64,000 nt of DNA from Schoenoplectus triqueter (Eukaryota; Streptophyta; Magnoliopsida; Poales; Cyperaceae): positions 62,001-126,000 of the forward strand of contig CAXKVV010002152.1 of NCBI GenBank assembly GCA_964058805.1, read 5' to 3'. The translations under genes were made by a program, and so were the position numbers. The notes under the pieces were generated by a model, which was not told where the DNA came from, ran no database searches, and worked only from the letters and a program-made list of their open reading frames with translations. Positions 25,501 through 55,336 of this stretch are shown here, one piece after another. Positions within the stretch are counted from its first letter, which is position 1, and each line of letters begins with the position of its first letter.

Positions 25501-27768
25501 TATGAACGTTCAACGACAGTAATTTTGCGTAAAAATTAAGTAAGATGCATTAAAAGCTGTTTGAAGAAGTTGTTTGAATTTTTTTTCATTTTTGGCTGAA
25601 TAAATACTGAAAATTTCATGAAAATTAATAAATTTACTTCTAATTATGCCAATGGTAAGATTATCCATTTAACACTTCGATATTAATATCCTACGAGACT
25701 AATTTTTCATAAAACATAAGTAAGATACATTACAAACAGCTGTTTAACCAACTTGTTTAATATTTAAAACATTCATTGTCCATTACTATATATAATTTCA
25801 TCAAAATTAATATAATTACTCCTAATTATACCTATTAGGAGAATATCCAATTAAAACTTCGATATGAATATTCTACGACACTAATTTTGCACAAAACATA
25901 AGTAAGATGCATTAAAAATAGCTGTTTAAACATGTTGATTGAGCTTTTAAAATATTTTATCCGCATAACCGCATATAATTTCATGCAAATTAATATAATT
26001 ACTCCTAATTATGCATATTATAATACTATCGAATTAAAACATCGATATGAATATTTTATGACGCATATTTCGCACAAAACAAAGTAAGATGCATTAAAAA
26101 CTTCTATTTAAATAAGTTATTTCACTTTTCTAAAATTTTTGGCCGCATAAATATACATAATTTCATGAAAATTAATGTGATTACCTTTAATTATGCCTAT
26201 TGTAAGATTGACCAATTAATACTTAGATATGAATATCCTACGACACTAATTTTCCATAAAACATAAGTAAAATACATTAGAAACTACTGTTTAAACAAGT
26301 TATTTCAGTTTTTCAAAATTTTTGGCCGCATAACTACATATAATTTCATACAAATTAATATAATCACTTCTAATTATGCCTATTATAAAATTTTCCAATT
26401 AAAACTTTGATATGAACATTCTACGATGCTAATTTTGCACAAAACATAAGCAATATGTGTTAAAAACTGCTGTTTAAACAAGTTGTTTGAGATTTTCAAA
26501 AATTTTGGCCGCCTAGCTACTCATAATTTCATGAAAATTAATATAATTACTCCTAATTATGCCTATTATGAGGTTGTCCAATTAACACTTCGAAATGAAT
26601 ATCCTACAATACTAATCTTTCATAAAACTTAAGTAAGATGTATTAGAAACTGCTGTTCAAACGAGTTATTTAATATTTTTAACATTGTTTGCCTCATAAC
26701 TACACATAATTTCATGAAAATTAATACAATTACTCCTAACTATGCCTATTAGAAGATTATCCAATTAACACATCGATATGAACGTACAACGACACTAATT
26801 TTGCATAAAAAATTAAGTAAGATGCATTAAAAATCTGATGAAAGAAGTTGTTTGATTTTTATTTAATTTTTGGTTAATAAATACGCAAAATATCATGAAA
26901 ATTAATAAATTTATTCCTAATTATGCCTATTGTAAGATTGTCCAATTAACACTTCGATATTAATATCCTACGAGACTAATTTTTCATAAAACATAAGTAA
27001 GATACATTACAAACTACTGTTTAACCAAGTTGTTTAAAATTTAAAATATTCATTATCCATTACTACATATAATTTCGTAAAAATTAATATAATTACTCCT
27101 AATTATACCTATTTGGGGAATATCCAATTAAACCTTCGATATGAATATTCTACGACAGTAATTTTGCACAAAACATAAGTAAGATGCATTAAAACAGCAG
27201 TTTAAACATGTTGATTGAGCTTTTAAAATATTTTATCCGCATAAGTGCATATAATTTCACACAAATTAATATAATTACTCCTAATTATGCATATTATAAT
27301 ACTATCGAATTAAAACATCGATATGAATATTCTATGATGCTTATTTTGCACAAAACATAAGTAAGATGCATTAAAAACTGCTATTTAAACAAGTTATTTG
27401 ACTTTTTTAAAATTTTTGGCCGCATAAATACACATAATTTCATAAAAAATAATGTAATTACTCTTAAATATGCCTATTATAAGATTGTCTAATTAACACT
27501 TCGATATGAATATCCTACGACACTAATTTTTCATAAAACAGAAGTAAAATACATTAGAAACTACTGTTTAAACAAGTTATTTCAGATTTTTAAAATTTTT
27601 GGCCACATAACTACAAATAATTTTATGCAAATTAATATTATCACTCCTAATTATGTCTATTATAAGATTTTCCAATTAAAACTTCGATATTAACATTTTG
27701 TGATGCTAATTTTCCAAAAAAACATAAGGAATATATGTTAAAAACTGCTGTTTAAACAAGTTGTTTGA

Positions 27769-27773
27769 GATAG
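27769..27773. other. Satellite/retrotransposon fusion junction with 3-bp microhomology
   Basis: Satellite reads 'gtttgagat' up to 27771, where other copies continue 'tttcaaaa' (compare 22661-22680). Here it continues as element sequence 'agataatgcgaa', which internally follows 'cagacgat' (45572-45579). The two partners share only GAT at the joint. There is no LTR end and no target-site duplication, so this is a deletion or recombination breakpoint rather than an integration junction. Confidence 0.85.
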
Positions 27774-29098
27774 ATAATGCGAATAATGAAAATACTGGGC
27801 CAGAAAAGATAGAATGCCAAGAAACAATGATAACTGAAGAAGATGATGATTGGAGACAGCCGTTCATCGAATATTTCCGGCATGGCACCCTCCCCAAAGA
27901 CAAAAGAATCGCTGATCAACTAAGAAAACGGGTACTACGATATGCGTATGTGGGCAACACGTTATACCGTAGGTCTTATGATCAGTTGTGGCTAAGATGC
28001 GTATCAGGACCTGAAGCCGGGCAGGTGATGAAAGAAGTTCATTCCGGACTATGCGAAGCACATCAGTCTGGGCCAAAGATGAAACTAAAAATCAAGCGAA
28101 TGGGATATTATTGGCCCACAATGGTGGCTGATTGTGAAGAGCATGCAAAGAAGTGCCGCATGTGCCAAATACACGGCCCTTTTATACATCAAGCGCCAAA
28201 CCTGTTGCACCCCACGGTAGCATCCTGGCCATTTAATATGTGGGGCACAGATATAGTGGGACCCATAGACCCTCCAACGTCGAGAGGTCACCGGTTCATC
28301 CTGGCGGCGACAGATTACTTTACGAAATGGGCCGAAGCCGTTCCACTCAAAGAAGTTAAAGCGTCTGATGTGGTTAAGTTCTTCAAGACGCACATCCTTT
28401 ACCGATTTGGTACACCACAACGAATAATATCCGATAATGGAACGGCCTTCAAGAGCTCCAAAGTCTATGCCCTGGCGGAGCAATTTAATATTGATTGGAG
28501 ATTCTCGTCCATTTATAACCCGAGAGCCAACGGCCTGGCCGAAGCCTTTAACAAAACCCTAATAAATATCATGAAGAAGACCGTAGACGGCAACCAACGA
28601 GACTGGGATAACCGTCTACAGGAGGCATTATGGGCTTATCGGACCACGTACCGAACGCCTACGCAAGCTACCCCATATTCTCTGGCTTTTGGGGTTGAAG
28701 CCGTCCTCCCTCTTGAGGTGGAACTACCGTCATTGCGGGTGGCTATGCAAAATGATATGACCATGGACGAATGCCAACAACTTAGACTGGACGAGTTGGA
28801 TGCCATGGACGAGAAGAGACTGATAGCCCAGCAGAACCTTGAAATATATCAGGCAAAAATGGCAAGGGCATATGATAAGATGGCGCGAGTCAGGGCATTT
28901 CAACAAGGGGAGCTTGTTCTTGTCCTCAAGAGGCCGATCATTGGCCGGCACATCGGCCCGAAATTCTCTCCGAATTGGGAAGGGCCATATGTAATTGAGA
29001 AGGTATACGGGGGCGGCGCATACCAACTCATAGACCATGAAGGTGAAAGGCCCATGCCACCGATTAATGGGCGATATCTGAAGAAATACTACACATAG
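27773..29098 (+). pseudogene. 5'-truncated gag-pol fragment: integrase domain
   Basis: The reading frame is identical to the last ~440 codons of the full polyprotein and ends at the same stop (29096-29098). The break falls just after the second RNase H and before the integrase, so the whole integrase survives: HHCC zinc finger (H at 28040 and 28061, C at 28154 and 28163), core D at 28250, D at 28433, E at 28541 (D-X35-E), and the C-terminal GPY motif. The upstream frame reads into satellite without an ATG; the first in-frame ATG is at 27827. No promoter is evident in the satellite, so I treat it as a fragment, although the frame itself is undamaged. Confidence 0.85.
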
Positions 29099-29693
29099 CC
29101 CGGAGCGGGGCCAACCGAGTAGTATCTATTGTAAATAAATAAGGAGGGAATAAGTGTTCGCTTACACACACGTACACGAAACACAAACCCATGTCTAACC
29201 TCCACTTTTGCATAAAAATCCAAAAAACCCTACTTGTGCATCTGTAAATAGAATGCATCCAAAAATCCAAAACCACACAAACACGTATAGCCCTATAAAA
29301 AATAAAAAATATATAGAATAAGAGAATTCAAAGCCGAAACCACGCGAGAATGTAAGGCGAGAGCCTTGGTGTTTGGGCTCATAATACAAATACCACTGGG
29401 TTTGTCCATTTGATACAGAATAAACACAAAAATGGGCAGGGTTTGCAGTTTGTCCCTCAAACTATCTGTTGCCCAATGACGAAAGTTGCTCATATTGGTC
29501 GCCCGCGGCGCGAGCCAAGGGATAGGTCGAGCAAATTGGTGGCTAGTAAATAGTCGCTTCCGAGGGCATATAAATAAATAACTCTCGTACTATTAGTAAC
29601 ATGTATCACTAATAACAAAAATCTGCTCTCTTCTAATAAAATAAAGGGATATCTAAGTAAAACAATAAAAACCTATTTTCCTTACTCATTGAT

Positions 29694-29742
<49 letters not shown>

Positions 29743-29746
29743 TATA
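29694..29746. repeat. A27(TA)13 microsatellite
   Basis: An uninterrupted run of 27 A is followed by 13 TA units. The equivalent in the complete element (47502-47550) is A27(TA)11. This 4-bp change accounts for the shift in offset between the two copies. Confidence 0.95.
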
Positions 29747-29808
29747 ATAAAATCTTTCCAATAAGGGGTTGCCACCTTTGTCCCCGACACCATGAGTGTT
29801 ATACAAAG

Positions 29809-30275
29809 CCAGGTTGGGTGCATTCATCCGTAAAAGCACCACACGCCCGAAGAAATGGTGTGTCATAATCCCACGACATATCATGGAGGGGTCAGATCAA
29901 GGGTTTACGCTTGTACCCGACATCTCATGTTAAACAAAGCGGCTCGCTTAAAGAAGTGACTCAGGTCATGGAGAGCGGACCTACCCGATGAAAGCCTGTC
30001 TCGCAGGGATGCGTGATGGATGTTTGAGGGTAGCTAAAATATAAAAAACCAGGTTGGGTACATTCATTCGCAAAAGTACCACACGCCCAAGGAGGTGATC
30101 TGTTTCTAATCCCAAAATAGGTCATGGAGGGGTCAGATTAAGGGTTTATGCTTTGCCCGACATTCGGTGTCAAATAAAGTAATTCGCTTAAAGAAGTGAC
30201 TCAGGTCATGGAGAGCGGACCTACCTGATGAAAGCCTGTCTCGCAGGGATGCATGATGGATGTTTGAGGGTAGTA
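29809..30275 (+). repeat. 240-bp tandem duplication in 3' UTR
   Basis: Two diverged copies start at 29809 and 30049 with 'ccaggttgggt', then 'accacacgccc', 'catggaggggtcaga', 'gcttaaagaagtgactcagg' and 'gcctgtctcgcagggatgc'. The second copy differs at many positions, so the duplication predates the unit duplication; both 3' UTRs carry it. Confidence 0.85.
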
Positions 30276-31008
30276 CCCCCACAAAACAAACTGAGTGGAG
30301 ATGAGTGAACGTGAGTTTCCACTTCTGCACGCAACGATGCACAAATGAGGGGAGAGTGGGTGAGCTTCCACAAATAAATGTCAATTAAATATACAAGGAG
30401 CATCCACAAAATGGTGTTATCAATTGCATCCATAATCCAATTGATACTGGTAAGTTTATCCATCAGTAATAAAGGGATAAACGGGTTTATTCTGTACCCG
30501 GCCTAGAGGTCAATACAGACAGGTTCGGTATCCGTAAAATACCACGGTTACTTCAGTTCTGTATTGTAATAAATAAAGAGAAGCTATGTATAGAATAAGT
30601 GCAATAGGGTGCTGTAAAGCTTTCCCTTTTTCTATTTTTGTACTTAGATGCTATGTGAAAATAAAAGCAGCTGTATTAGGCACTTTTACAACTAAGATTG
30701 AGAGTGTAAAAATGTAAAGAGCTTATGAAAAATCTCCCATACTGCGAGAGAAGAGATGAGAAAATAGCGAAGCAGGCGATCAGCATCCCTAACAGTGAAA
30801 GAAAAGAGAAAAGAAAGTGAAATAAGGTAGCCGAGAGATGCTATCTTTATCTATCCCCATAGTGGCTGAAGCAGGTAGGTCAGCAGGAGGCTGAGTACAT
30901 GCACCATTATCCCACGAGCGAGAGGCTGAGAGGACAGGCCCCACCATGTTGCGCTCATGAGAAGAATCTGATTAAAGGAAAATCTATCGAAGTCTAGCCT
31001 GAACCCTA

Positions 31009-31021
31009 AGAAGGAGAGAGG
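31009..31021 (+). other. Polypurine tract (second-strand primer site)
   Basis: AGAAGGAGAGAGG lies immediately before the TGTGTCG of the LTR. A purine run touching the 5' end of the 3' LTR primes plus-strand synthesis in LTR retrotransposons. A longer purine run at 30797-30817 is a possible secondary tract, but it is not next to a TG that fits the LTR ends. Confidence 0.6.
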
Positions 31022-31266
31022 TGTGTCGAATATGTGCACCAAAGCAGGCCCTTCAAATTGCCAAATTCTTCAGGACCCGCTTTGGTGGGTGGCTCTTTGT
31101 TTACCCCTGAAAGGTTGAAGGAAGAAATACAAGAGAGAAAGCCAAGATCAAACCCTATGAGCTGAAGCAGTACAATCCCTGTACTACATGGAATAGTATC
31201 AATGCCAAGCCAGTATTTTGATACAACCAATCATGAGAAATCCCAATGTGATTTTTGCTTTCAAGG

Positions 31267-31470
31267 CTGACCTGGTGCCAAAGCTGTGAGCAACCACCTA
31301 ACCATGCTTTAATTTGTGTCAATTGCTGATAAGTAGTCAGCTCTATGACCAAATTACCCTCATGTTAAGGGATTGAAAGTCAATTTCACAAGACTGATCA
31401 GGTGCCAAAGCTGGGAGCAACCACCTGATCAAGTCTAGATTTGTATTAATTGCTGATAAGTAGTCAGCAC
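31267..31470 (+). repeat. Tandem duplicated ~127-bp hairpin segment in LTR U3
   Basis: Two copies of 'ggtgccaaagctg'...'gcaaccacct'...'aattgctgataagtagtcag' are spaced 127 bp apart. Each ends in a small stem-loop, GCTGA-TAAGTAG-TCAGC (31325-31341 and 31452-31468). The second copy also has a 10-bp perfect stem, TGATCAGGTG with CACCTGATCA. The old inverted fragment near 240-570 carries both copies, with stems GTTGA/TCAAC (349-365) and ACTGA/TCAGT (476-492). Confidence 0.7.
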
Positions 31471-33084
31471 TTGATCAAATCAAACCCTAATGAATATCAA
31501 TATAAGTCTAATTGGTATTTAGTTAGGGTGGTTTTTGCAAGGAGAATTTATTTGGCAGAGACACTGAGCTACAACTGATAAATAGGGATTTTATAAGAAT
31601 AAAACAGGGTTTTATTGATCATGGAATTTTTAGCACAAGCAGACAGGGGTAAAAATGGAATATGAAAATACAGAGATAATAATCATGATTTTAGAGAATT
31701 TTGGTGAAAATTTTATGATTTTTGGATGAAGGGATCTATTAAAATTAATTGGAGAAAGAAAATCAGATAAATCCAAAGGTCAGGATTTGATCAAGGGCTT
31801 TTATGGGTGTAACTTGGAGCTGAAGAACTATCTGTGTGCAAATGGGAGATGCTAAGCACATAAGGGATAAGTTGGCGCTGGAGGTGTTTTTAAAAAGGAG
31901 CAAACATTTGCATGAGCCCAGCGCACTTTATTTGTGTCTCATTAAACCCGACAAGTGGGGCCTGTTCATGTGCGCCGAGTTCACCCAAAAGCGGCCGCTT
32001 CCCATCTCTTACTCTTTCGCTGCTGCTGGGACCCACAGGGCAGAACTCTCTTCCTTTCTTCTCTGCCGCGATTTCTTCTTCTTTAACTCGATTTTTCAAC
32101 AGAAGAAACGATTGAAAATGGAAATTGCTCAATCGGTGACGAAAATTTGTGAACTTTATATCGTTGGAAAGCCCTTGATGGAGAGAATGTGATGAAGCAA
32201 CTCTCATCCTATTTGGTACATCACACGTCACTCGCATCCAAAGTGAAATTAGTTCGGCCAAAATACAATTGAAGCTGTCTGAGGCTCAATTACCCTACTT
32301 GATGATTCAGGGAGTACCTCTGGACCTCCACGACGCTGCCTAAACCCTAAACTTGAGCTCTAGTACCTCTAAGCTTGAGAACCACCAACTTGCCAATCGG
32401 CAATGGAGAGAAGTGTTTAAAACCAGTGCCAGAGTGTGTAAATGGCCAAGGAAATGAATTGTACCTATTTCTGGGACCAATGTGATGTTAATAGGGCTTT
32501 CAATTAGAAGAATTGATCAAAAGACAAGTATAGCTAATTCAAGTGCTTAAATCGGGCTTAAAATGGAAACATGAGTTTGGGATGCCTAATTGGTTCCTTC
32601 TATCATCTGAACCTACTAAGGAGAGTACTGAGGCAGTGTGGGAGTATCCAGAAGCTTCTGGAAGAGTCCAGAAAGAGGGAATTGTGTAAATGGCAGTTGA
32701 GTGGCATTGTTGTAATTTTAAACAAAAGCCTAACAGAATAAAACTACCATCATTTCAGTTGTTGTGAATCAGCAACTGCCTCAGCATTGTTCAGTGGACC
32801 ATAAGGTGCATCAAGAGAGTGATTAAACTGGAAATCAAAAGACCAAGTGCAGATGGGCTAAAAGGAGATGAAGTTGGCAGAAAACAGAAAAAATATCAAT
32901 TGCCAAGCTGGCAATCCAGACTTCAAAGCACTCCCCTCAACAAACACGACTGAGATCAGTCCTGGCCATTGGATTAGTGAAGGAGAGGTTGAGATTGTGC
33001 CATGTCAGTGATCTGTGGGAGGGAAAAAGCACAAACTGTGCTAAGAGAAAGCACAACTGATCAGTTAAAACCCAAACTGACCCC

Positions 33085-33091
33085 TATATAA
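33085..33091 (+). promoter_or_regulatory. Candidate TATA box of the LTR promoter
   Basis: TATATAA within 'cccctatataagccctagc', in a locally GC-richer context. A start site about 30 bp downstream would lie near 33115, giving a U3 of about 2.1 kb and an R-U5 of about 4.4 kb. It was chosen by motif and context only. The identical motif is at 50889-50895 in the 3' LTR. Confidence 0.45.
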
Positions 33092-33927
33092 GCCCTAGCA
33101 ACTGAGAAGTGGGGAGAGGGAGCCATTATATACCCTGAGTAGATCCAGTAGCTAAGGCAGTCCCATTTTTGAAGAGGCATTCATGTACATACTACCCTCA
33201 TCAGCAGAAACCTCACTCATGCTAATTGATCTCGGTCAAGAACTTGAGAACTTAGCAAAAACAGTAGAATCCTAGCTAATTGGTCCCAATTGAGGAAAGG
33301 TGGAGGCTATGATCAAGATTCAAGAAGATTCAAGAAGAAATGGTGATTGATCAATTGATAGTAGATTCAATTGAATCTCTCAATTAGATCATACCAATCC
33401 TCCTTCCACAGGCTTCATCAATTGTGTATACATTCTAAGGTTTGGTAATTTTGTAAGAAAAGATGAAGCTTTCCCTCCTTTATTTGAATTTTTTTTTATT
33501 TTCTGTTAAAACTTTCCTTTTTAATCCCTTGACTATTTCTTTGAAGTTTCTTTTGAAGATTTTTTTTAGCTTTAATTCATTCTTCTTGATTCACCTTTCA
33601 TTTTGATTCTTCTACTGTTTTGTTTCAATTAGCCTAAATTGAGTATCAGCAATAAAAGGGAAGAAATAGCTTAACAAAAGGTTAGTAGTAGAGCAAATAT
33701 ATTGCCTCCTAACCCTCATCTATAGCTGGTCGAAGACTAAAGTCTCCCAGTTCCAATTAGTGATCTGATCAGATTGCAATTAGAGCATAATTTGGAAATC
33801 CACAAAGAAAATTGCTGTTAAACCGAGAAATGTGATATCCAACACTGGTAGTCCATACAAATTGATGCTTGAGCCTCGTGATATGATAGTTAGCACTAGG
33901 ATTATAAGAATCGATGAAGAATTAGCT

Positions 33928-33936
33928 CAGGTAAGC
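33928..33936 (+). promoter_or_regulatory. Candidate 5' splice donor in LTR (CAG|GTAAGC)
   Basis: CAG then GTAAGC matches the plant donor consensus except the last base, with the cut after 33930. It is downstream of the TATA box and upstream of all the stem-loop arrays and primer-binding sites. Paired with the acceptor at 37813/37814 it would define a 3,883-nt intron. This is inferred from motifs; other GT sites exist. Confidence 0.4.
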
Positions 33937-33959
33937 ATTCAAACATGAAGAAGTAAGAG

Positions 33960-34240
33960 CCAAGAACTCCTCGGTACCGAATTGGTACTAAACAGCAAAA
34001 CGGTACAGGCTCAGCCGATTACCCACCGCATGGATGTGCTCAACAAAGGTATTACTGTATTCACCTTGCTCCGGCGACGCTAGTGACATTGGCTGATCTC
34101 CGATCACCAAACCCGATCGACGGGAAGCCACCTCCGCGCGAATCTTGAAGTACCAACAAGTCGGGAAGGCTAAGGAGTTCCTCTGCGTAACTATTAAAGC
34201 ACTCGCGAATCTTGAAGCTCGCCGATGCATGTGATCTATC
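33960..34240. other. GC-richer segment of unknown origin inside AT-rich LTR
   Basis: This piece (with 'ctccggcgacgctagtgac', 'gatcgacgggaagccacctc', 'tcgcgaatcttgaagctcgc') stands out from the AT-rich LTR around it. 'gcgaatcttgaag' occurs twice, near 34139 and 34204. An 84-codon minus-strand frame spans 33988-34242, with no motif I recognise. It could be captured host sequence or simply the LTR's own composition. Confidence 0.3.
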
Positions 34241-34539
34241 AAGAGTTTAAGGGGTCAAAACAGGAAGAGGATCTGGGCCTTAAATTTATTGAATACACAT
34301 CTCAATTGAATCCAACGGCCCAAGAGCATCTAAACATTTTAACTGAAATCTGCACTAATCTCAACATGATCCAACGGGTAGTATTAGATGCTGTATTTGA
34401 TTGTGGCCCAGAGTAAGAGCCGGCCCAATTCAGAAAAAGTAAAAGGGAAAATAAACTGGGCCCAATTCGTATTAAAATAAGAAGATTAAAACTTGGCCCA
34501 GTCAATTAAGCCCATTAAGTTAATAACAGAATATTAAAA

Positions 34540-35790
34540 TTAAATAGTAAATAAATGATTTGAAAATGCTCCTGAACTCCAAATTGACTCAAATTTGTTT
34601 CTAAAGTTTCCTTATTTTTCATACTATTTTTCTATACAATAATATTCTAGTTTTAAAAATATAATCATGATAAAACAATTTAAAAGCAAAAGACACTACC
34701 TATATTGATATATTTGACCTAGCTTTGACTTGTCATTTTAAATACTATAAAAATTCCAAAAATACAAATAAAAATTATAAATAATAACTAGATATATTTT
34801 AGTGATTTTTCAAGTGATTTTCCATGAAATAATAATGATGATAGTAATATACTATAATAAATAGTGAGATTAGCTATATTCTTTGATAAAAAAAATATAT
34901 AATAATAATAATAGATATTATATTGATATTTTCTGTAAAAAGAATAATAAAAATAAATAGCACAAAATATATAAAAATATAATACCATGGTAATAAATAG
35001 TAAAATGCATTTTCTTTTATAATAAAGAATGATAATATAGTTTTATAATATGAATTGTATTTCTTTTATTTCTATACAAACATATACAATAAAAAATATA
35101 CTTTTGATGAATAAAATATAATAAAAAATAATAGTTGTAATAAAAACATAATGAATTTCATCTCTTATGACTATTTTCAACTAGTAATAAAAAATCCTAT
35201 ACTTTTCTATAGATAATAAATAGAAATAATAAAAATAGATATAATAAATAGTATAATAAATAGGATAGAATATTAGTAATGATTTCTTTTTAGCTATTAT
35301 AGATATTAAAAATAAAACAAAAAATAAAAAAAATAATAATAATAGTAAAATAGTATAGCTAACCACCTTTTAATTTTGTAAATGATTCTTACATAATGAA
35401 TAGCATTTCAATATAATAGAATATAATAATAAAATTCTATTACTTTGGCTATTATAAACATTTTAAAAATACAAATAAAAATTATAGCCATTTTATTTTC
35501 TATTATTTTTGTAAGTGATTTTCTACAGAATAAATAGAGTTTAGAAATAATAAAAAATAAAATTTTACTACTTTAGCTATTATAAAAATCCCAAAAATAT
35601 AAATGAAACTCTAATTAATAGCTACCCCTTTTCTTATTATTTTTGTAAATAATTTTCTACATAGATAAATAGAGTTTAAGAAATAAAAATAATAATAATA
35701 AAAAATATAATAATAGTAATAAGAATATAATAATAATAATAATAACAATAATAATAATAATAATAATAAATAAATGCATCTTCATAATAG
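34540..35790. repeat. AT-rich low-complexity region with ~125-bp hairpin units (LTR)
   Basis: Almost pure A/T sequence with AAT and ATAA runs (notably 35680-35770). Degenerate units resemble those at 1030-1440, anchored by 'ggctattataaac' near 35447 and 'agctattataaaaatccc' near 35574, each closed by an inverted counterpart ('attatagcc', 'ttaatagcta'). Minus-strand frames of 61-66 codons here are low-complexity artefacts. Confidence 0.65.
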
Positions 35791-35916
35791 AAATAATAAT
35801 GGAAGATATTACATAATAGACTTTGTGCATTTTAGAAATGAATAAACATGCTCACATAAGGAGTGTAGAGCCACGTAAGAATATTTGCACACGTGATATA
35901 ACATTTAGAATGATTA

Positions 35917-36335
35917 GTCAAGACGAGAACATCTTGACGTAAGATGATTAAGGCTTTAATAGCAATACAAGAAGATATGTCGAGACAAGAACATCTTGAC
36001 GCTTAATGAAGAATAACAAGATACGTTGAGACAAGAACATCTTGACGAGAGATGAATAAGGCTTTGATAGCAACATGAAGGAACATGTCGAGACAAGAAC
36101 ATCTTGACACTTGATGAAGAATAACCAGAGCTATGATACTAACATGGAGATGTATGTCGACTCTGAAGAAGAAGAACATTACGATGTCCTAGATAGGTGA
36201 CATCTTAATGACTCGCTGCCATGAGCAAGTAACTCATGATTGAATACGCTCACACAAGGGGTGTAGGGCAACATAGTAATTTTGCACAAGTAATGCAACA
36301 CGTAGAATGATTAGTTGAGACAAGAACATCTCGAC
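35917..36335 (+). other. Stem-loop family A: five 22-nt hairpins with CRAGAACA loops
   Basis: Hairpins of 7-bp stem and 8-nt loop at 35917-35938 (GTCAAGA/TCTTGAC), 35979-36000 (GTCGAGA/TCTTGAC), 36025-36046 (GTTGAGA/TCTTGAC), 36087-36108 (GTCGAGA/TCTTGAC) and 36314-36335 (GTTGAGA/TCTCGAC). All stem changes keep pairing if G-T (G.U) pairs are allowed. The loop is CGAGAACA or CAAGAACA. The old LTR has a related copy near 2170 (TCAAGA..TTTTGA). Confidence 0.75.
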
Positions 36336-36467
36336 GCTCGCTGAAGAATGACCAAAGCTACGACATCAGCATGGAGAGATATGTCGACTTTGAAGAAGAA
36401 GAACATTACGATGTCCGAGCGAAGTGACATCTTAATGACTCGGTGTCATGAACAAGTAATTCATGAC
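36177..36467 (+). other. Stem-loop family B: CATT..GATGTC and CATGAR hairpin pairs
   Basis: Two copies of a two-hairpin module. First hairpin: CATT-ac-GATGTC / GACATC-tt-AATG at 36177-36210 and again at 36404-36437, with a symmetric 2x2 internal loop. Second: CATGAG-CAAGTAA-CTCATG (36220-36238) and GTCATGAA-CAAGTAA-TTCATGAC (36445-36467), where the pair next to the loop is G-C in one and A-T in the other. The old LTR keeps the module at 2262-2318. Confidence 0.7.
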
Positions 36468-36481
36468 CATTTGAGCTAGCA

Positions 36482-37076
36482 AGACTGAACTCATCCGTCG
36501 ATGGGTTTGTCTCCTGGTTCATCTCCCGAGACTGTGAGATTGAATCGGTCTGTAGGTAGATTCATCCACAAAACAGTGAATGTGAACCGTTCTGTAGGTA
36601 GGTTCCTTCACTAACACATGCCTCAATGTTGAACTGGCTCAGCGCTTCAGGTTTGACATTGTGTGCAATTGTGTTTCCTAGGTTCATGAATCGGCTTAGT
36701 GCTTCGAATTCATGATCTAGAAGATCGGTGAGAAGAAACACGTGGGCCATATCCACCCTTTTCCTGATTCACCAACCTCAAGATCAACCGGCTCAGCGCT
36801 TCGAGTTGTATTTTGTGTGATTGGTTGTTGACTAGTTAAGATTGAACCGATCTGTTTGTAGGTTTATCTTCTAGATCAACGGAGGTCGAGTCGTTCTGTA
36901 TGTAGACTCACCTCAAGCCCCCTATGAAGAGATTAACCTGGTCTGTAGGTAAGGTTACATCTCGAGGTGGCATGGACTGAACCGATCTGTTTGTAGGTTC
37001 GTCCTCCATAGGACAAAACCGATCTGTTTGTAGGTTTGTCTTCCATAGATTGAACCGATCTGTTTGTAGGTTCATC
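36482..37076 (+). other. Stem-loop family C: array of covarying hairpins with one bulged base
   Basis: Nine hairpins: 36482-36512 (AGAC-t-GAACTC / GGGTTT-GTCT), 36538-36566 (GAT-t-GAATC / GATTC-ATC), 36576-36611 (GTGAA..GAACC / GGTTC..TTCAC), 36838-36870 (AAGAT-t-GAACC / GGTTT-ATCTT), 36882-36914 (GAGGT-c-GAGTC / GACTC-ACCTC), 36929-36963 (GAGAT-TAACC / GGTTA-c-ATCTC), 36974-37004 (GGAC-t-GAACC / GGTTC-GTCC), 37012-37040 (GACAAA-a-CC / GGTTTGTC) and 37048-37076 (GAT-t-GAACC / GGTTC-ATC). Loops are near GATCTGTTTGTA or GGTCTGTAGGTA. Arms vary in concert while loop and bulge position stay fixed. Interspersed hairpins of another family occupy 36624-36715. Confidence 0.8.
36624..36715 (+). other. 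Stem-loop family D: hairpins with GGCTCAGCGCTTC loops
   Basis: 36624-36661 forms an 11-bp stem (CAATGTTGAAC with GTTTGACATTG, two G-T pairs) around tggctcagcgcttcag. 36684-36715 forms an 8-bp stem (TCATGAAT with ATTCATGA) around a loop containing cggcttagtgcttc. A weaker relative (CAAC/GTTG, loop cggctcagcgcttcga) is at 36785-36808. The old LTR counterpart at 2502-2539 has TCAAAC/GTTTGA, turning the two G-T pairs into C-G and A-T. Confidence 0.65.
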
Positions 37077-37395
37077 TTTCGTAGACCCCTTTTTATGAAA
37101 TTAGACGACCACTTGACCATCTTTTAACTATACTATTTGCTTCTCTCTTTCAAAGATCCAGAGGTGCCTCGAGGTTAGTAGCCCAGGGTAATTAACGGTG
37201 GGGGCTTGCGCCCACCGGAATCTACAAGAACTCACAATCACTAAAAACCCCCTGAATGTGCATCCAAATATCTCTAAACGGCAGAATCGGCCGACACCCA
37301 GCAGATGCACGCTCGGGAGGGATCTCCGTGTCCTTCTTCCGCAACCCATCGCCCAGCGGCGGTGCGGAGCGCGCGAAAAAGGGTCGCACAGGATC

Positions 37396-37413
37396 TGGCA
37401 CGCCCAGTGGGAC
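37396..37413 (+). other. Primer-binding site copy 1 (inside LTR)
   Basis: TGGCACGCCCAGTGGGAC, 5 nt after the first CACA terminus. Because the matched LTRs extend to 37532, this copy lies within the LTR. The TGG start fits the CCA end of a tRNA. Partial similarity to plant tRNA-Arg 3' ends is my recollection, so the primer is not assigned. Confidence 0.7.
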
Positions 37414-37537
37414 TATCAAAATAAACTCAGGGAATATAAGATTTGGATGCACGCTCGGGAGGGATCTCCGTGTCCTTCTTCCGCATCCCATCGCCCAGCG
37501 GCGGTGCGGAGCGCGCGAAAAAGGGTCGCACAGGATC

Positions 37538-37555
37538 TGGCACGCCCAGTGGGAC
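37538..37555 (+). other. Primer-binding site copy 2 (probably the one last used)
   Basis: Same 18-nt sequence, 5 nt after position 37532. That base corresponds exactly to the end of the 3' LTR at 55336. Since the primer site used in reverse transcription fixes the LTR's 3' end, this copy is the best candidate for the priming site in the last round. Confidence 0.75.
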
Positions 37556-37679
37556 TATCAAAATAAACTCAGGGAATATAAGATTTGGATGCACGCTCGG
37601 GAGGGATCTCCGTGTCCTTCTTCCGCATCCCATCGCCCAGCGGCGGTGCGGAGCGCGCGAAAAAGGGTCGCACAGGATC

Positions 37680-37697
37680 TGGCACGCCCAGTGGGAC
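37680..37697 (+). other. Primer-binding site copy 3 (leader side)
   Basis: Third identical site, 5 nt after the CACA at 37671-37674, followed by 'ctagattctcctcttatc' and the untranslated leader. It lies outside the LTR as defined by the 3' copy. Confidence 0.75.
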
Positions 37698-37816
37698 CTA
37701 GATTCTCCTCTTATCTCTGAAAGAGAGAGGCAAATAGAATAGTTAAGAGATACAAGTGGTCTTCTATGTGCTAAAATGACTAATAATTTTCAAGTATTTT
37801 TTTGTTTTTGCAGGAA
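37698..37816 (+). other. Untranslated leader before gag with 3' splice-acceptor-like end
   Basis: Short leader between the last primer site and the gag ATG. It ends in a pyrimidine tract and CAG ('gtttttgcag', cut after 37813), with the ATG three bases later. This looks like a 3' splice site rather than plain leader. An upstream out-of-frame ATG sits in 'ctaaaatgac', near 37776. Confidence 0.5.
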
Positions 37817-40800
37817 ATGGCATTCTTTGGAAACTTCAACCTCGCTCCCTACACCGTCACTCCTGCACAGAGCCCAGAGGGCAAGCTCTTCATGTTCTTC
37901 GGGACTATCCCGCAAGAACTCACCATCTACGGCCCAGCTCCAGTGGCCACGATCACTCCCGCAACCGTCCGGATCTCCATCCCGGACGAGGAGGAGGACT
38001 CGATCACCCTGACTCCCAAGGGCATCTCCAATAACGTCATGGCCTCTCCTACTACCTCCCCAAAGAGGAGAAGGCGACCGTCCAAGAGGACAGCCCCAAC
38101 GGCCGCAGCCCAGACTACCCGCAACTCTCAAGCGTCCAGGAAGAGGGCCCTGGATGCATACCAAAATCAGCTGGTGGCTAGGCCAGCTATCCCAGTCTCC
38201 AATAAATTCTCGGCTCTCCGAATAGTGGCCAAGAACTCGGCCACAGGCCAACTCCGCCAGGCATGGGAGGTGCCTAAGCCCACACCTCGCCCAACTCAAA
38301 GGCCTCAGCGCCGCCAGGACAAGTCTCAAACCCCTGCAGAAGCCATCTACAAGGCTCACAGGGCCCTCAAGCAGAGGAAGAGCGTCAAGAACGCTAGGTC
38401 GAGACGATACGTCTCCCGCCCCAACCAATCTCAAGGCATGGCTCAGCCGCAAGCCATTGCCTCCACTCCGAACCCAAGGAGGTTTACATCAAAGGCAACA
38501 CCTAGCACCCGGCAGGTGTGGGTCCCAAAGGGTTCCCAGCCAATAAAACCCCAGTCTCAAGCCCAGCCCAGTAAAGCCGGCAAGCCTAACGCTCCGCCCG
38601 AGAGCGTGTTCAGCCGTCTAGGTCAGAAGAGTGTATTCAGCCGATTAGGCTCGAGAATACCACTCAACAACTTAAAAATAACTGCCCCTGACCAAGCAAA
38701 GAAGAAGAGAAGAACCGCTCGCTATGAAGAGCACTTCTCAGTCAACACCATCAGTATAAGCTACGATACTGATCCAGATACTGATGGAGAGGTGAACATG
38801 GTCCAGGACGACCAGTCCCCGCCTAATCAAGCTCACGTCACCAATACCAATAAAAATAATGGTAGAAAAGGGAGACCCCCCAAGAGAGTCAACCCCGAAG
38901 ACAACAGTAGGGAAGGGGAAGACCACAACGAAAACCCTGACTTCTTCGATAATGAAGATGACGTTGAAACACGTCCCGAAGTGCCTATCGATGAAATTGA
39001 AATACTAAAAGGCCACATCGAGGCACGGGATGAAGAGCTGATTAGGCAACGAGAACTAATCGCTACCATGCTAAAGCAAAACGAAGAACTGATTAAGGCG
39101 GTTAAGTCATTGCAAGAATCACAAGATGCCAATTTCAAAGCTGGTAGCTCCCGTCAAGAAGGGGTCCACAGTACCAAAAGCAATCATAAGGGAAAACAAC
39201 CCGTCGATTCTAAACCCCATCCACACAGAACGATAGAAGTGGAGGCTGAACCAACGGGAATATCCCGGAAAGAGATTCAAGCCATGATTGCCCAGCAAAT
39301 GCAAATAGCTGGAGGTGGATACGCTATCCCTCCCGTTAAAAACTGTGGACATCCATACCCTGCCATATATGATTTAGAAGAATATCCTAAAGGGTATGTG
39401 ATCCCCCGTTTCAGGACCTTCTCAGGGGAAGGCAATAAAGACCTAAACCCCGAACAACACCTGGCCCATTTTGTAGCCTCGTGCGGCAACACGGGCGGCA
39501 ATGATGCACTGTTGTTAAGACAATTCCCTCAGAGCCTAGTGGGAACCGCTTTCCAATGGTACTATTCGCTGGAAAACAACAGCATCAGAACCTGGGACGA
39601 GATGGCAGACTCGTTCAGGGCACGATTTGTCATGGTGTCTGACAAAATAAACATAGCCGATCTGGCAAGCACTAAACCCAAGAAAGGGGAGTCAATGACA
39701 GATTTTATCAATAGATGGCGGAACCTCAGCATCAAATGCGACCGCACATTGACCGAAGATGAAGCCGTCAACTTAATCATGAAAAACATTGACGGGTGGA
39801 TGGGCATGCTTCTTGGTGTGACAAAGGTCAACACATTCAAAGACTTGCTCAGATCGGTATCCAACATGGAAAGGATGTCACCGCACACCGTGCCAAACTT
39901 TATGAATAATAGGCCGCAACGAGGGGCCCGAGCTGAAACCAAAGTGGCATTCACCTCGCTAAAAGACAAGATGGTTGTCAACGCAGACACCCAAGGCGGC
40001 AGCAGTAGCACAAATGGCAACAATTACAATAAGGGACCCAGGCCCAATCCAGGAGGGAATTCACGGAGTTTTGAATCCCTTAAACAAAAGAAATCTAAAC
40101 CGTACTCCTTCAGAAAAGATAAAGTTGCCCAAATCTTCAGGGGAGCACTGAAGAATGGTCTAACCCTGCCGGCCAGTAAACGTCCGGAAGATGCCGATAA
40201 ATCGGACGAACCCAACTTTTGCCCATACCACAGAATAATAGGGCACTCAATTGAAGATTGCTGGGTCTTCAAAGATTGGGTCGAGAAGGCGTATAAAAAT
40301 GGTGAAATTACTTTACCAAAAGGGTTCTTGCAAAGCCCATCAGCCCATGAGCAGGCCAACACGATCTCTCATGAGGAAGAGAAAGTCCCGGGCCAGTCAT
40401 GCGAAGACCAGGAAGAACAATGGACTACGCACCTATCGAAGAAATCGATTAAAATGCTTAAAGCCCTTAAGAAAGAACCTGACATGAGATGGAAGGACGA
40501 CATCACACCAGTGGTCCCACCAAAACCCAGGGTATATTATAAGGTGGACCAGAGCCAAGATCAGGTTCTTAAGAAGAAAAAGAAGCATAGAAGCAACAAG
40601 TCCAGAAAGAATAAAATTGAAGAATGCGAGCAGGGCAGTCCCGAGGCGATTACCCTTCAACACTTCATCTCCAAAGAAGACTGGGAGAAGTTAACCCTAG
40701 GCCAAAAGAAAGAAGATGTAAATGAAGAAATAAATAAAGAAGAAAGCGAAGAGATCTGGGGTGCTTCGTGCAATATGGTATATTCTTCTCACGACGAAGA

Positions 40801-43800
40801 TATGCCAACATTAGAGGAGATGTTCTTCCCGAATGACGAAGGGGAAGCAAGCACCTCTGGGACCAAGAACGAAGAGTGCAAAGCCGTGCTCCGGTCTGGG
40901 ACTTATATACCCGAGAGACAGGCTCCCAAGGATTCCGATAAAGGAAAAGATAAGGCCCTGAATAAAGGTAAAGAGGTCGAGAATCCAAGCAAGAACCCAG
41001 AAAGGACCCGGTCGACGGGCGAAGAATATAATGTGTTGGCACATCTGCGTAAGATTCCAGCGCTATTAAGCATATTTGACGCGTTGATGATGTCACAAGA
41101 CCTAAGGGAGGTACTAATCCAGGCCTTGCAAGATCCCGAGAAGTACAAGTCATACTTTGTCGAGCAAAATATGCAAGAAGCCCTATTCACCGCCAAACGG
41201 GCCGCCTGTATAAATTTCACAGATGATGACCTCCTGATAGGCACCGTCGACCACAACCGCCCATTGTACATCACTGGAAATTGTGGAGGGCAAAAGATTG
41301 GCCGCATCTTGGTCGACGCAGGGTCTTCGATCAATATTATGCCGCTCAAAACCCTAAAGACCATCACCTTAGATGTGAAGAACCTATCTGATGAAAAGGT
41401 GATTATTCATGGCTTCAATCAAAACTCCCAAAAGGCCCTGGGAGCTATAACTCTGAACCTGCAATGCGGAAGCCTAAGAGCGCCTACTAAATTCTATGTC
41501 ATTGACGCTGAAACCTCTTATCGGGCGTTGCTGGGTCGCCCGTGGCTTCACAGCAATCAGGTCATACCCTCTACTCTGCACCAATGCCTGAAATATATTG
41601 AGAATGGTAAGCAAAAGAGAATTGACGGAGATGTCAAGCCATTCGGGGTGCATGAGATTAAGTTCAATGACGCCCAATATTTTCTGCCTAAATCCGCCGT
41701 GGCGCCGAGCCGGCCAATGACAAAAGCAGGTCAGAAACCCTTCAGCAAAGGCCCTAAATTTGATACCTCATCTGGAGAAGAAGAAGAGGTTAAATTCAAT
41801 ATCAAACCCCGAGGTGCTCGAGCCCAAAGACCCGGAAGAAAGTCGGGTGAAGAAGCAACCTTCCGCTTCAAACAGGTGGCTGCGTATAAGGCCCAAATAA
41901 AGCCGAGCGAAATCAAGTCAAGTGATTCTGAAGAGGAGGTCATTTTCAATTTTAAGCCTGCCAACACCCCTCAAATTCAGATCATAGAGGCAACTTCGAG
42001 AGAAGACTCTGAAGATTCTGACGACTCGGGCGATACCACCTCGGGAGAAGAGTCTGGCCATGATCGTCAGCCCTGGGAAGAGGAATCTGACGAAGAGATC
42101 ATCTATCACATCCTCAAAAAGCCATATAAAGGGCCCGAAACAGATAATGAAAGTGAGGAGTCATATATGATCAACACGGGACCCGGTAGCGGAAGGGATA
42201 ACCCGGTTAGGCCGAGGCCTATAAATGAAGAACGCTCATGGCGGGAAAATTTCGAAGGTCGCGTCTGGAATGCGATTGACGAAATAAGGCACCAAGTTGA
42301 AAATAATAGAAGAGAGGTGTCTGAACAATGGGAAGTGATGCAGGACATCAAAACGCAACATAACGAGATCATGATAATGATTGAAAACCTGCAAACCGCA
42401 ATTTATAACTCCGAGCTACTCAAGGAGGTGACGAGCGAACCCCGTTCCGGGACCCCTGAAAGACAAGCACCCGATAGCGGCAAACGGGTAATTGTAATAG
42501 TAGATGAATCAAAAGGGGAAGAAACGAAAGCTAAACAATCGACCGTCATGCAAACCCTCAAGGTCAAGAAGAGTAAACCATACTCTTTTCTAAAAAATAA
42601 AACAGCTCGGATATTTGAGCAGGCCTTAAAGAGTGGGTTAACACTTCCCGTCTGTAAAAGACCCGCAGACATGGAAAGAACCGGTGAAGGCGAATTCTGC
42701 CCCTATCATCGCATACTGGGCCATACAATTGAAGAATGTTGGGTATTCAAAGACCTAATAGAAGAAGGGCACAGAAACGGGACGATCCAACTCCCGAAGA
42801 GCTTTCAACAAGACCCAGCTCCGCATAACTTGAATAACAAGGGCAAAGGGGTGGCTTATACGATCTCGCACACTCCCGTACCTAGTAAACCTAAGGTTGC
42901 GAGACGTAAGCCGATCAAAGAAATCTACCGCTCTAACTCAGTCATGAACATTGAGATAGAAGAAGAGATGGCAGCGCTAGAGATTACTGTGGTTCCCGAA
43001 AGGCATTTTAAAGACCTCATGCCAAGGGAAGTGAACCATATACAAACCCTGAAGACCTTTGTTGTGCCGGCAAAGGTAGAGCGCATCAAAGGGAGAACTA
43101 TCATCCACAAGGCTATAATTTTCTATCAGAGCGATTCAACCCAGTCTCTGAAGAACCCTGATCGCAACACTTGGAAAAAGTGGGTGATAGAACAAGAATC
43201 GGAGAATGCAACGAGCGATGACGCTGCATCTCATCCCTTTGGAAAGGAGCTATATAAATTGGCGAAAAGGGCAAGATGTCTGAGAGACATATCCAAGGCC
43301 GAGGCCAAGCGCTTTGATGAACTCTGGAATGGCGGCCAGAATAAAGTCCTGGGCCTGGATGGTAAAATAAAATACACCCGGGGATTAGGGTACAACTGCG
43401 ATGACGCAGCATGCTTCGAGGGGTCTCTCAACGAATACCATATGAAAGAAAGCTGTTGCATGACTTCTGTTGAAATGCCGGATAATGAAACAGAAGAGGA
43501 CAATACCCCGGTCCTGAAAAATGCTTTGAAACAGCTGGAAAAGGAACCTAACACGGTCGATGAGTTAGCTGAAATCAATTTGGGGACGGAAGAAGACCCA
43601 CGACCAACTTTTATAAGCGCGTCGTTGCCGGAAGAGGTGGCTGACAGGTTGAAGACATTCCTTAGAAGCTATATGGACTGCTTCGCTTGGAGTTATAAAG
43701 AAATGCCTGGATTAGATCCCAATGTAGCGGTCCATTACTTAAAAATTGATCCAACCTTCAAGCCGATTAAACAAGCACCGAGGCGAATGAGAATAGAACT

Positions 43801-46800
43801 CGAAGAGAAGGTCGTGGAGGAGACAAAGAAACTCATCGACGCCGGCTTTATACGGGAAGAAGAGACGCCAGAATGGGTGGCTAGCATTGTCCCGGTTAAA
43901 AAGAAAAATGGGCAAATCCGCATTTGCGTAGACTTTCGGGACTTAAATAAGGCGTGCCCTAAAGATGATTTTCCGCTCCCCGTAACCGAAATCATAATTG
44001 ACCATACATCCTCTTATGAAGTCTTCTCCTTCATGGACGGTTATGCGGGTTATAATCAAATCAAAATGGCGCCAGAAGATGAGAGGCATACGGCCTTCCG
44101 CACGCCGATTGGCATATATTGTTACAAAGTCATGCCGTTTGGGCTGAAAAACGCGGGTGCCACCTACCAACGGGCGATGACAAAGATATTCAACGATCTG
44201 ATCCACAAGATAGTAGAATGCTATGTGGACGACCTAGTCATCAAGGCCATGTCATATGAAGAACACTTCCAATATCTTGAGGTCGTTTTCAACCGCCTGA
44301 GAGAACATGCGCTCAAATTAAACCCGTTGAAATGCGCATTCATGGTATCTTCTGGTAAATTTCTAGGGTTTGTAGTACGCCATAGGGGAATTGAGATAGA
44401 CCCGGGCAAAATCAAAGCAATAACTGAACTATCCCCGCCGAAGAATTTAAAACAATTGCGATCTTTGCAAGGGCAATTGGCGTACATCAGGCGGTTCATA
44501 GCCAACCTATCGGGTAAAATCCAACCCTTCACCCGGCTAACTAAGAAGAATATCCCGTTTAAGTGGGATGGCGAGTGCCAGCGAGCCTTTGAAGAAATCA
44601 AGGCATATCTACTCAACCCTCCAGTATTGGCGGCGCCCATACCCGGGAAGGAACTTATCCTATATACGACTGCCCTAGATGGATCCTTGGGAGCCCTATT
44701 GGCCCAAGAAAACCAGGATGGTAACCAAAATGCGCTATATTACTTAAGTCGCATGATGGTAGGAGCAGAATATGGGTATTCACCGATTGAGATGCATTGT
44801 CTAGCCCTAATCTTCGCGGTAAAGAAGTTGAGGCACTACATGCTAGCCCACAAAATCATTTTAATATCCAAGGTGGACCCTCTTAAGTATCTGATGACTC
44901 GGCCAATGTTGACGGGGAGGCTGGCCAAGTGGGCTATCATTCTCACCGAGTTCGACATCACCTATACACCGCAAAAGGCGATAAAGGGGCAGGCGCTAGC
45001 AGATTTCCTGGCTGCACATCCGATTCAAGATGACTCCCCATTAAAATGTGACTTCCCTGATGAGGAAACCCTACATGTTGAAGAAGGAAGTCCCATATGG
45101 GAGATGTACTTTGATGGTGCTTCTTCAATCAAGCCGATCGCGGGCCCGGGAGTCCCAACTGTGCGGGCTGGCGCAGGACTAGTCTTCGTAACCCCGGAAG
45201 GCGGGATAATACGACATTCTCTGGCTTTAACCGAGCCATGCACAAATAATGAAGCAGAGTATGAGGCGCTTATCGCCGGACTAGAGCTATCACTGGAGCT
45301 AGAGATCAAGGCTGTGCGCATCTTTGGGGATTCACAGTTGATTATAAATCAAATAATTGGCGAATACAAGGTCTTGAAGCCGGAACTAATACAATATCAC
45401 CAGAAGGCCATGGAACTAATGAAGAAAATCCCATATGTGTCCATTGAGAAGGTCACGAGGGCCGTGAATGGTGAAGCAGATGCGTTGGCCAAACTCGCCA
45501 AGGAGCTGGGTGAACCAACAGAGCCGGAAATCCATATCGTCGTCCGCAATAGGAGGCCATTATCATTGTGTCAGACGATAGATAATGCGAATAATGAAAA
45601 TACTGGGCCAGAAAAGATAGAATGCCAAGAAACAATGATAACTGAAGAAGATGATGATTGGAGACAGCCGTTCATCGAATATTTCCGGCATGGCACCCTC
45701 CCCAAAGACAAAAGAATCGCTGATCAACTAAGAAAACGGGTACTACGATATGCGTATGTGGGCAACACGTTATACCGTAGGTCTTATGATCAGTTGTGGC
45801 TAAGATGCGTATCAGGACCTGAAGCCGGGCAGGTGATGAAAGAAGTTCATTCCGGACTATGCGAAGCACATCAGTCTGGGCCAAAGATGAAACTAAAAAT
45901 CAAGCGAATGGGATATTATTGGCCCACAATGGTGGCTGATTGTGAAGAGCATGCAAAGAAGTGCCGCATGTGCCAAATACACGGCCCTTTTATACATCAA
46001 GCGCCAAACCTGTTGCACCCCACGGTAGCATCCTGGCCATTTAATATGTGGGGCACAGATATAGTGGGACCCATAGACCCTCCAACGTCGAGAGGTCACC
46101 GGTTCATCCTGGCGGCGACAGATTACTTTACGAAATGGGCCGAAGCCGTTCCACTCAAAGAAGTTAAAGCGTCTGATGTGGTTAAGTTCTTCAAGACGCA
46201 CATCCTTTACCGATTTGGTACACCACAACGAATAATATCCGATAATGGAACGGCCTTCAAGAGCTCCAAAGTCTATGCCCTGGCGGAGCAATTTAATATT
46301 GATTGGAGATTCTCGTCCATTTATAACCCGAGAGCCAACGGCCTGGCCGAAGCCTTTAACAAAACCCTAATAAATATCATGAAGAAGACCGTAGACGGCA
46401 ACCAACGAGACTGGGATAACCGTCTACAGGAGGCATTATGGGCTTATCGGACCACGTACCGAACGCCTACGCAAGCTACCCCATATTCTCTGGCTTTTGG
46501 GGTTGAAGCCGTCCTCCCTCTTGAGGTGGAACTACCGTCATTGCGGGTGGCTATGCAAAATGATATGACCATGGACGAATGCCAACAACTTAGACTGGAC
46601 GAGTTGGATGCCATGGACGAGAAGAGACTGATAGCCCAGCAGAACCTTGAAATATATCAGGCAAAAATGGCAAGGGCATATGATAAGATGGCGCGAGTCA
46701 GGGCATTTCAACAAGGGGAGCTTGTTCTTGTCCTCAAGAGGCCGATCATTGGCCGGCACATCGGCCCGAAATTCTCTCCGAATTGGGAAGGGCCATATGT

Positions 46801-50888: not shown

Positions 50889-50895
50889 TATATAA
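50889..50895 (+). promoter_or_regulatory. Candidate TATA box in 3' LTR
   Basis: Same TATATAA as in the 5' LTR. In this position it would drive read-through into the satellite at 55337. Confidence 0.35.
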
Positions 50896-54880: not shown

Positions 54881-55199
54881 TTTCGTAGACCCCTTTTTAT
54901 GAAATTAGACGACCACTTGACCATCTTTTAACTATACTATTTGCTTCTCTCTTTCAAAGATCCAGAGGTGCCTCGAGGTTAGTAGCCCAGGGTAATTAAC
55001 GGTGGGGGCTTGCGCCCACCGGAATCTACAAGAACTCACAATCACTAAAAACCCCCTGAATGTGCATCCAAATATCTCTAAACGGCAGAATCGGCCGACA
55101 CCCAGCAGATGCACGCTCGGGAGGGATCTCCGTGTCCTTCTTCCGCAACCCATCGCCCAGCGGCGGTGCGGAGCGCGCGAAAAAGGGTCGCACAGGATC

Positions 55200-55217
55200 T
55201 GGCACGCCCAGTGGGAC
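55200..55217 (+). other. Primer-binding site embedded in 3' LTR
   Basis: TGGCACGCCCAGTGGGAC, 5 nt after a first CACA terminus at 55194. One more 142-bp unit follows before the true LTR end at 55336. A primer site inside a 3' LTR shows that the LTR has taken up leader sequence. Confidence 0.85.
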
Positions 55218-55336
55218 TATCAAAATAAACTCAGGGAATATAAGATTTGGATGCACGCTCGGGAGGGATCTCCGTGTCCTTCTTCCGCATCCCATCGCCC
55301 AGCGGCGGTGCGGAGCGCGCGAAAAAGGGTTGCACA

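Follow-up and report, generated by a model that had tools for sequence, protein, structure and literature searches.

An array of like hairpins with matched stem changes in the LTRs of a giant Tat-type Ty3 retrotransposon

Plant LTR retrotransposons fill plant genomes, and their cis-acting RNA signals are poorly known; to our knowledge, no RNA hairpin array has been found in LTRs of the Tat lineage. Packaging signals of the STNV/MS2 type comprise numerous hairpins, scattered over the genome, that keep a short motif in the loop while their stems vary, and the iron-responsive element has an unpaired base, a bulged C, five base pairs below a CAGUGN loop. BARE belongs to Ty1/copia, a superfamily other than that of the element described here, and the U5:AUG pairing known from retroviruses concerns HIV-1. 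Structured or packaging-related RNA has been described for retroviruses (PMC7599994) and for Ty1 (PMC5454406) in the accessible parts of both sources, the former of which also covers the long-range U5:AUG pairing and the zinc knuckle of MLV, whose ligand is an exposed guanosine of UCUG. According to the accessible part of PMC3735527, the packaged RNA of elements other than BARE is poorly characterized, and a second RNase H (aRH) between RNase H (RH) and integrase (INT) serves as marker of the angiosperm Tat (Ogre/Retand) elements in the available sections of PMC6317226. We analyzed a stretch of 64,000 nucleotides of Schoenoplectus triqueter (the window), taken from an assembly of 82 Mb in 2086 contigs, in which the stems of an array of like hairpins change in matching pairs. 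These matched changes suggest that the element makes use of its RNA in folded form, most likely to offer a protein a row of docking sites. The domain holds about eight like hairpins in each LTR segment, with more than 1000 exact core copies in the 82-Mb assembly; it amounts to a natural mutagenesis experiment in which covariation can be traced within one genome, and it makes RNA selection by plant elements directly testable.

The element carrying the array has a 5' LTR at 31098-37532 and a 3' LTR at 48902-55336, both on the forward strand and 6,435 bp long, running from TGTTTACCC to GGGTCGCACA as judged by comparison of copies and end motifs. The left end was fixed by comparison with L048, an LTR copy inserted in satellite DNA, and the right border of the 5' LTR was placed by analogy with the 3' LTR because the end motif is present three times at the former. 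The duplicated stretch that includes the LTR spans 9,765 columns with an identity of 99.9%. An open reading frame of 3,034 amino acids (37802-46906, forward strand) encodes Gag-Pol, in which gag, protease, RT, RNase H, an RVT_3-type RNase H and integrase were found in pieces and in this order, the protease match lying below the curated cut-off. Within 44300-46906, the Pfam matches followed one another as RT_RNaseH (115-218), RVT_3 (288-400), Integrase_H2C2 (509-561) and rve (580-677); an aRH thus is present besides the RH and before INT, the order that marks Tat elements, and on its predicted domains the element is a giant Tat-type Ty3 retrotransposon. Among the integrase matches listed (120 of 1796), Rhynchospora proteins had identities of 65-77% over partial lengths, the best two Dendrobium proteins reached 63-65%, and metagenome proteins up to 96%. 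A search for RuBisCO yielded a single weak match. Gag-Pol contains two CHHC knuckles, at 40220-40261 and 42698-42739. They flank the protease region and are followed by similar residues, which looks like an internal duplication.

The end of the 5' LTR and the PBS fall into a tandem repeat with a unit of 142 bp (37304-37697, forward strand, 2.8 copies). The PBS-like motif GCACGCCCAGTGGGAC occurs in it three times, and once inside the 3' LTR (55185-55336); elsewhere in the genome, the number of units ranged from one to about four among the best 40 candidates scored. The stretch before the 5' LTR (27761-31097) holds an integrase-containing piece (open reading frame at 27761-29098) and a 3' region, which duplicate the part preceding the 3' LTR, and the element therefore seems to belong to a tandem or recombined pair that ends abruptly at the satellite. 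This satellite, with a unit of 183 bp, forms long arrays on both sides of the element (5094-27771, 124.7 copies; 55342-64000, 47.5 copies), and L048 likewise begins within this satellite. A 58-bp tandem array (3254-4186, 16 copies) lies directly 3' of a diverged LTR and is crossed by minus-strand open reading frames of 234-273 amino acids, which are probably not genes. At the left edge of the window, positions 14-1042 form an oppositely oriented LTR piece, inverted relative to the start region of the LTR (388 nt matching 31191-31578 at 89%, and L048 as well).

The hairpin array is located near the 3' end of the LTR, with the PBS lying downstream. An earlier note, made by reading the window, had reported nine like hairpins at 36482-37076 whose arms differ between units yet stay complementary, and had proposed a covariance model as a check. 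Such a model (R1) was built from an alignment of 13 clean units of this family (type A), and its matches were taken at E up to 1. It found 26 matches in the window, all on the forward strand: nine at 36481-37078, nine in the 3' LTR at 54285-54882 and eight in the diverged LTR at 2332-2878. The nine units of the 5' LTR are located at 36481-36513 (34.9 bits), 36536-36568 (43.8 bits), 36578-36609 (25.4 bits, from a partial match at 36583-36605), 36838-36870 (51.3 bits), 36882-36914 (44 bits), 36929-36963 (28.7 bits), 36973-37005 (48.8 bits), 37010-37042 (46.5 bits) and 37046-37078 (51.3 bits), so that the array is present as reported. The separate set that had been ascribed to the diverged LTR (2332-2941) was found as well; it comprises nine forward-strand units at 2332-2920, the ninth of which (2899-2920) is missed by R1 and found by motif match. 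A loose hairpin motif matched the window 16 times, compared with 0.39 matches expected and a maximum of 2 in 100 shuffles.

Each type A hairpin consists of a loop of 11-12 nt, an inner stem of 5 bp, usually one unpaired base on the 5' side, and an outer stem. All arm pairs listed in the earlier note could be read in the sequence, and 96.2% of the 130 cells of the 13-unit alignment were paired, compared with 29-51% when partners were slid; both partners change in eight of the ten pairs. Pair types, counted as one of five measures applied to this alignment, were not in excess (11, shuffle mean 12.9). The covariation had been called strict, which is too strong, as the outer stem has a mismatch at 36536-36568 and is broken at 2805-2833, 3-nt interior bulges occur on the 5' side at 36578-36609 and 2457-2487, and the unit at 36929-36963 has an extra 3' bulge. 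The loop, described as near-constant, is exactly GATCTGTTTGTA in four of the nine units, and variants of it are found in the other five; the single unpaired 5' base said to be fixed in most units is usually present, with 3-nt bulges in some units. Local fold z-scores indicated enriched structure at 35800-37080, where segment means ranged from -1.2 to -1.8, compared with -0.5 to 0.05 in the rest of the LTR; they were low on both strands and did not tell the two strands apart.

Type A is not the only family, and the hairpin domain extends beyond the array first reported, with extra families in 35917-36817 and a long-range helix just downstream. Three type B hairpins with the loop GGCTNAGNGCTT are located at 36624-36817, five type C hairpins with the loop CRAGAAYA at 35917-36335 (loops starting at 35924, 35986, 36032, 36094 and 36321), and three type D hairpins with the loop CAAGTAA at 36219-36466, all on the forward strand. 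In each of these families, Watson-Crick cells at the right register exceeded those of all 200 shuffles (type B, 421, shuffle maximum 388 at offset 2; type C, 804, maximum 731; type D, 835, maximum 610), and G-U exceeded A-C (118:48, 162:38 and 78:58, respectively). Arms of type C anchored on the loop were 82% canonical at offset 0 and 22-49% at other slides. Two type D units have the arms CATGAG/CTCATG and CATGAA/TTCATG, which are one compensated pair apart, and the third is unlike them (TTTTGCA/TGCAA). The type B hairpins are present in the minimum free energy (MFE) fold of the leader; three of the five type C hairpins and one of the three type D hairpins, the first unit, do not form in it. 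A loop-loop pairing of families A and C, seen by eye, was dropped since it is absent from the diverged loops. As a tentative picture, which we consider doubtful at present, the LTR might encode a modular scaffold RNA of at least four hairpin families, each with a constant loop and changing stems and with units amplified and lost. Such an RNA would be multivalent, each family having a different ligand, and its repeated Gag-recruiting sites would replace the few unique packaging hairpins of retroviruses.

The arms of the long helix are located at 37102-37175 and 37696-37766 (both forward strand), the latter immediately downstream of the last PBS copy; complementarity extends to 60 of 74 aligned columns, and the duplex has a calculated energy of -76.9 kcal/mol. 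The MFE fold of 35840-37800 kept 54 pairs of this helix together with most type A and B hairpins, and in this model the predicted helix encloses the U5 end and the PBS. Of the 108 loci described below, 53 were given to the test, and 18 of these, representing 17 distinct copies, had both arms. The duplex energy lay between -75.9 and -91.3 kcal/mol in 17 of them; the remaining locus, whose end seems to cut the helix, had -45.1 kcal/mol. No right arm was found in the other 35 loci, including all 15 loci of the diverged type that were given, probably because these loci are 3' or solo LTRs or have short flanks. The arms, which vary little among copies, are separated by 226-232 nt in 13 of these 18 loci and by 510 nt in the window, a distance that fits two extra 142-bp repeats. 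The predicted helix points to a common transcript of 37102-37175 and the leader. A psi signal of the retroviral type is located in the leader, has base-paired hairpins kept by compensation, and is a site that Gag/NC binds and packaging requires. The array lies upstream of both the PBS and the long helix and may belong to the leader, and compensating changes occur in its stems (see below), only a few of them as the sole change in their hairpin. Alternatively, the array could lie in U3, in which case only the 3' end of the RNA would carry it.

Covariation was assessed in 108 loci from the genome of the window, which partly overlap, include the window's own two and are a non-random sample: 48 were chosen by similarity to the LTRs of the window, and the other 60 by core patterns of the hairpin in which letters of the arms are specified. 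Type A units were located in them by the loop alone, blind to the arms, which yielded 435 distinct units (744 occurrences). Their inner stems contained 1,964 Watson-Crick cells out of 2,175, besides 116 G-U, 41 A-C and 54 other cells, whereas shuffling of the 3' arms (500 times) gave a mean of 1,383 and a maximum of 1,469 Watson-Crick cells, and sliding of the partners by 1-3 positions gave 275-632. Because 60 of the 108 loci had been drawn by patterns with arm letters, covariation was retested without pattern-matching units. It persisted both in the 48 similarity-drawn loci (102 units, 448 of 510 cells Watson-Crick, shuffle maximum 334) and in all loci (1,374 of 1,550, shuffle maximum 962). 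An earlier count in 66 loci (187 units) had given 51 G-U and 14 A-C cells in the inner stem, and no G-U excess in the outer stem (69 and 67).

Exact matches of the two hairpin core patterns numbered 1,037 and 359 genome-wide, with none for the reversed patterns. Across 257 Gb of genomes from bacteria and archaea, the first pattern was matched four times, each time singly, where about seven matches were estimated by chance, and the hairpin core had no match in viral contigs. Once the 108 segments were oriented by similarity to the LTRs of the window, 901 hairpins were sense and 4 antisense. The number of like hairpins per LTR segment ranged from 1 to 18 (mean 8.3). The spacing of the hairpins varies by place (36, 37, 48, 73 or about 135 nt; contigs C7, C22, C33, C79 and others of assembly G000), and the arrays therefore grow and shrink between subfamilies.

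Another way to look at the stems is to place their changes on a tree, for which 96 copies were aligned after orientation (108 segments less nine dropped for length and three exact duplicates). In the 90 type A pairs, 21 double changes led from one Watson-Crick pair to another on the same branch, and 12 of these changes fell on internal branches; sliding the pairs by 2-4 columns left 0, 4, 0, 3, 1 and 2 such changes. One caveat is that unit exchange between repeats, or misaligned like units, may have produced part of the 21, because only three were the sole change in their hairpin. Single changes away from Watson-Crick pairs outside CpG gave G-U more often than A-C (126 and 73, p = 2e-4, a stem count that includes type B pairs), at ratios of 34:13 on internal and 92:60 on terminal branches, and the matching changes in other well-filled columns were balanced (680:675), so that the mutational control was flat. 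As the G-U excess occurs in the stems but not elsewhere, the sense RNA probably is the selected form; an inverted repeat acting at the DNA level would not give rise to such a strand bias. On the other side, the ratio of single stem changes that keep a pair to those that break it did not differ clearly between internal (37:27) and terminal branches (107:131; p = 0.09), and the G-U excess extends to terminal branches. The suggestion of the earlier note that RNA is the selected form thus agrees with the covariation between units, the same-branch compensations and the G-U excess over a flat control, and we consider it very probable on this comparative evidence that an RNA structure is under selection.

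Internal-branch changes per column amounted to 0.71 in the inner stem, 1.13 in the spacers (every array column that is not in a type A unit, and thus also those of type B hairpins) and 1.26 in the loops; the loop as a whole was not slower than the spacers and hence is not conserved overall. Three loop guanines, G1, G6 and G9, which were picked from four loops after seeing the data, had 4 internal and 47 terminal changes (spacers 366:739, p = 4.5e-5), and positions 2 and 4 are free, position 2 having on average 2.5 internal and 2.0 terminal changes in the four loops. The loop consensus is G-N-U-N-U-G-U-NN-G-U-A. UCUG was present in 371 of the 435 loops, a set picked by a motif that requires part of UCUG, and in 313 of 832 loops picked by the arms alone with both strands read, corresponding to about three quarters of the sense readings; it is not invariant. 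The inner stem was good in 423 units; for 194 of them the outer stem fitted best with a one-base 5' bulge, for about 107 with an interior loop of 2/1 or 3/1 (ties split), and an excess on the 5' side (offsets 1/0, 2/1 and 3/1) was found in about 301. The bulged base was T in 230, C in 55 and A in 15 of the 300 units with a good 1/0 outer stem, and never G.

These features can be combined into a proposed role. The array would sit in the transcribed leader, upstream of the long helix around the U5 end and the PBS, and its hairpins would represent multiple copies of one protein-binding site, read through the loop guanines and the kink. The large number of hairpins suggests multivalent binding. 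The likeliest ligand would be Gag of the element itself, which would use its CHHC knuckle to assemble on the genomic RNA that is to be packaged. If an RNA structure is indeed selected, a protein-binding array is a somewhat better bet than all other uses together, and if proteins do bind, Gag and packaging have slightly better than even odds; for the whole chain, from selected structure through protein binding to packaging, we estimate a probability of about 0.3. Of the roles put forward in the earlier note, a protein-binding array, packaging included, fits best, and dimerisation through a GATC palindrome in the loop is not favored.

The strongest competitor accepts the binding sites and changes their ligand: the hairpins might be recognized by an RNA-binding protein of the host, or help to translate or export the element's RNA, and not serve packaging. 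The structural evidence is the same for both readings, and the geometry of loop plus bulge resembles sites of host proteins such as the iron-responsive element, but no matching Rfam family was found. We regard this as a serious minority possibility.

A different explanation dispenses with selection on RNA altogether and assumes that template switching or unit exchange, that is, correction of quasi-palindromes by a polymerase and copying of whole units, keeps the arms complementary. The growth and shrinkage of the arrays and the small share of double changes that stand alone in their unit would be expected under this scenario. However, correction should erase the unpaired 5' base, which persists with different letters, and it should treat G-T and A-C alike, which is contradicted by the excess of G-U over A-C changes against the flat control; copying of units alone does not account for the matched differences in both arms between units. 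An origin without RNA selection therefore is unlikely.

Still less probable is a dimerisation domain, with the loops kissing through the GATC palindrome or one family pairing with another. In retroviral leaders, dimerisation takes place close to the packaging hairpins (accessible part of PMC7599994), a kissing-loop model exists for Ty1 (accessible part of PMC5454406), and 264 of the 435 loops open with GATC. But GTTC (78) and GGTC (27) are common among these 435, and loop position 2, which lies within the palindrome, changes often on internal branches. A source of small RNAs, with the hairpins diced into silencing or decoy RNAs, is very improbable: sense-strand hairpins within an LTR would suit it, but the product would come from the stems, which vary, whereas some positions of the loop are kept, and arms of about 10-15 bp are short for plant Dicer. 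Because some loop guanines look constrained and the stem letters vary, protein-binding hairpins are preferred over such a source.

The earlier note knew of no described LTR domain like this one, and neither Rfam nor the literature searched provided one. A search of 28000-38000 against Rfam at E up to 1 gave a single match, outside the array (E 0.55, 21.1 bits, cut-off 60), loci L010, L048 and L076 had no match at the gathering score, and no description of an array of like hairpins in an LTR was found in the accessible parts of the open-licence literature. The long helix recalls the U5-leader/PBS helices of retroviruses, in which sequence upstream of the LTR end likewise pairs with sequence just after the PBS; those helices are much shorter than the 54 pairs predicted here. 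The place of the kink is like that in the iron-responsive element, but the loop reads GNUNUGU..GUA and the bulge is T, C or A. With the packaging signals of the STNV/MS2 type, which the accessible account of STNV describes as short and degenerate, the hairpins share their large number, a short loop motif that is kept and stems that vary, but here they stand together in a single LTR domain, have a fixed kink and are not scattered. The second RNase H between RH and integrase, the giant size and the long LTR are shared with the Tat lineage (Ogre/Retand), whereas the hairpin array present in this element is not described in the available sections of PMC6317226. BARE, a plant LTR element with named packaging signals, has no repeated hairpin array described in the accessible part of PMC3735527. 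Closest in the proposed function is the core packaging signal of MLV (SL-B/C/D, UCUG), which according to the accessible part of PMC7599994 also combines several hairpins near the 5' end with a zinc-knuckle Gag and an exposed UCUG guanosine. In MLV, however, the hairpins are few and distinct and the UCUG of the solved complex is a linker, whereas here like hairpins occur in number and UCUG lies in loops, as candidate sites only. Structured RNA domains of retroelements thus are already known, and what seems to be new here is an array of like hairpins in an LTR.
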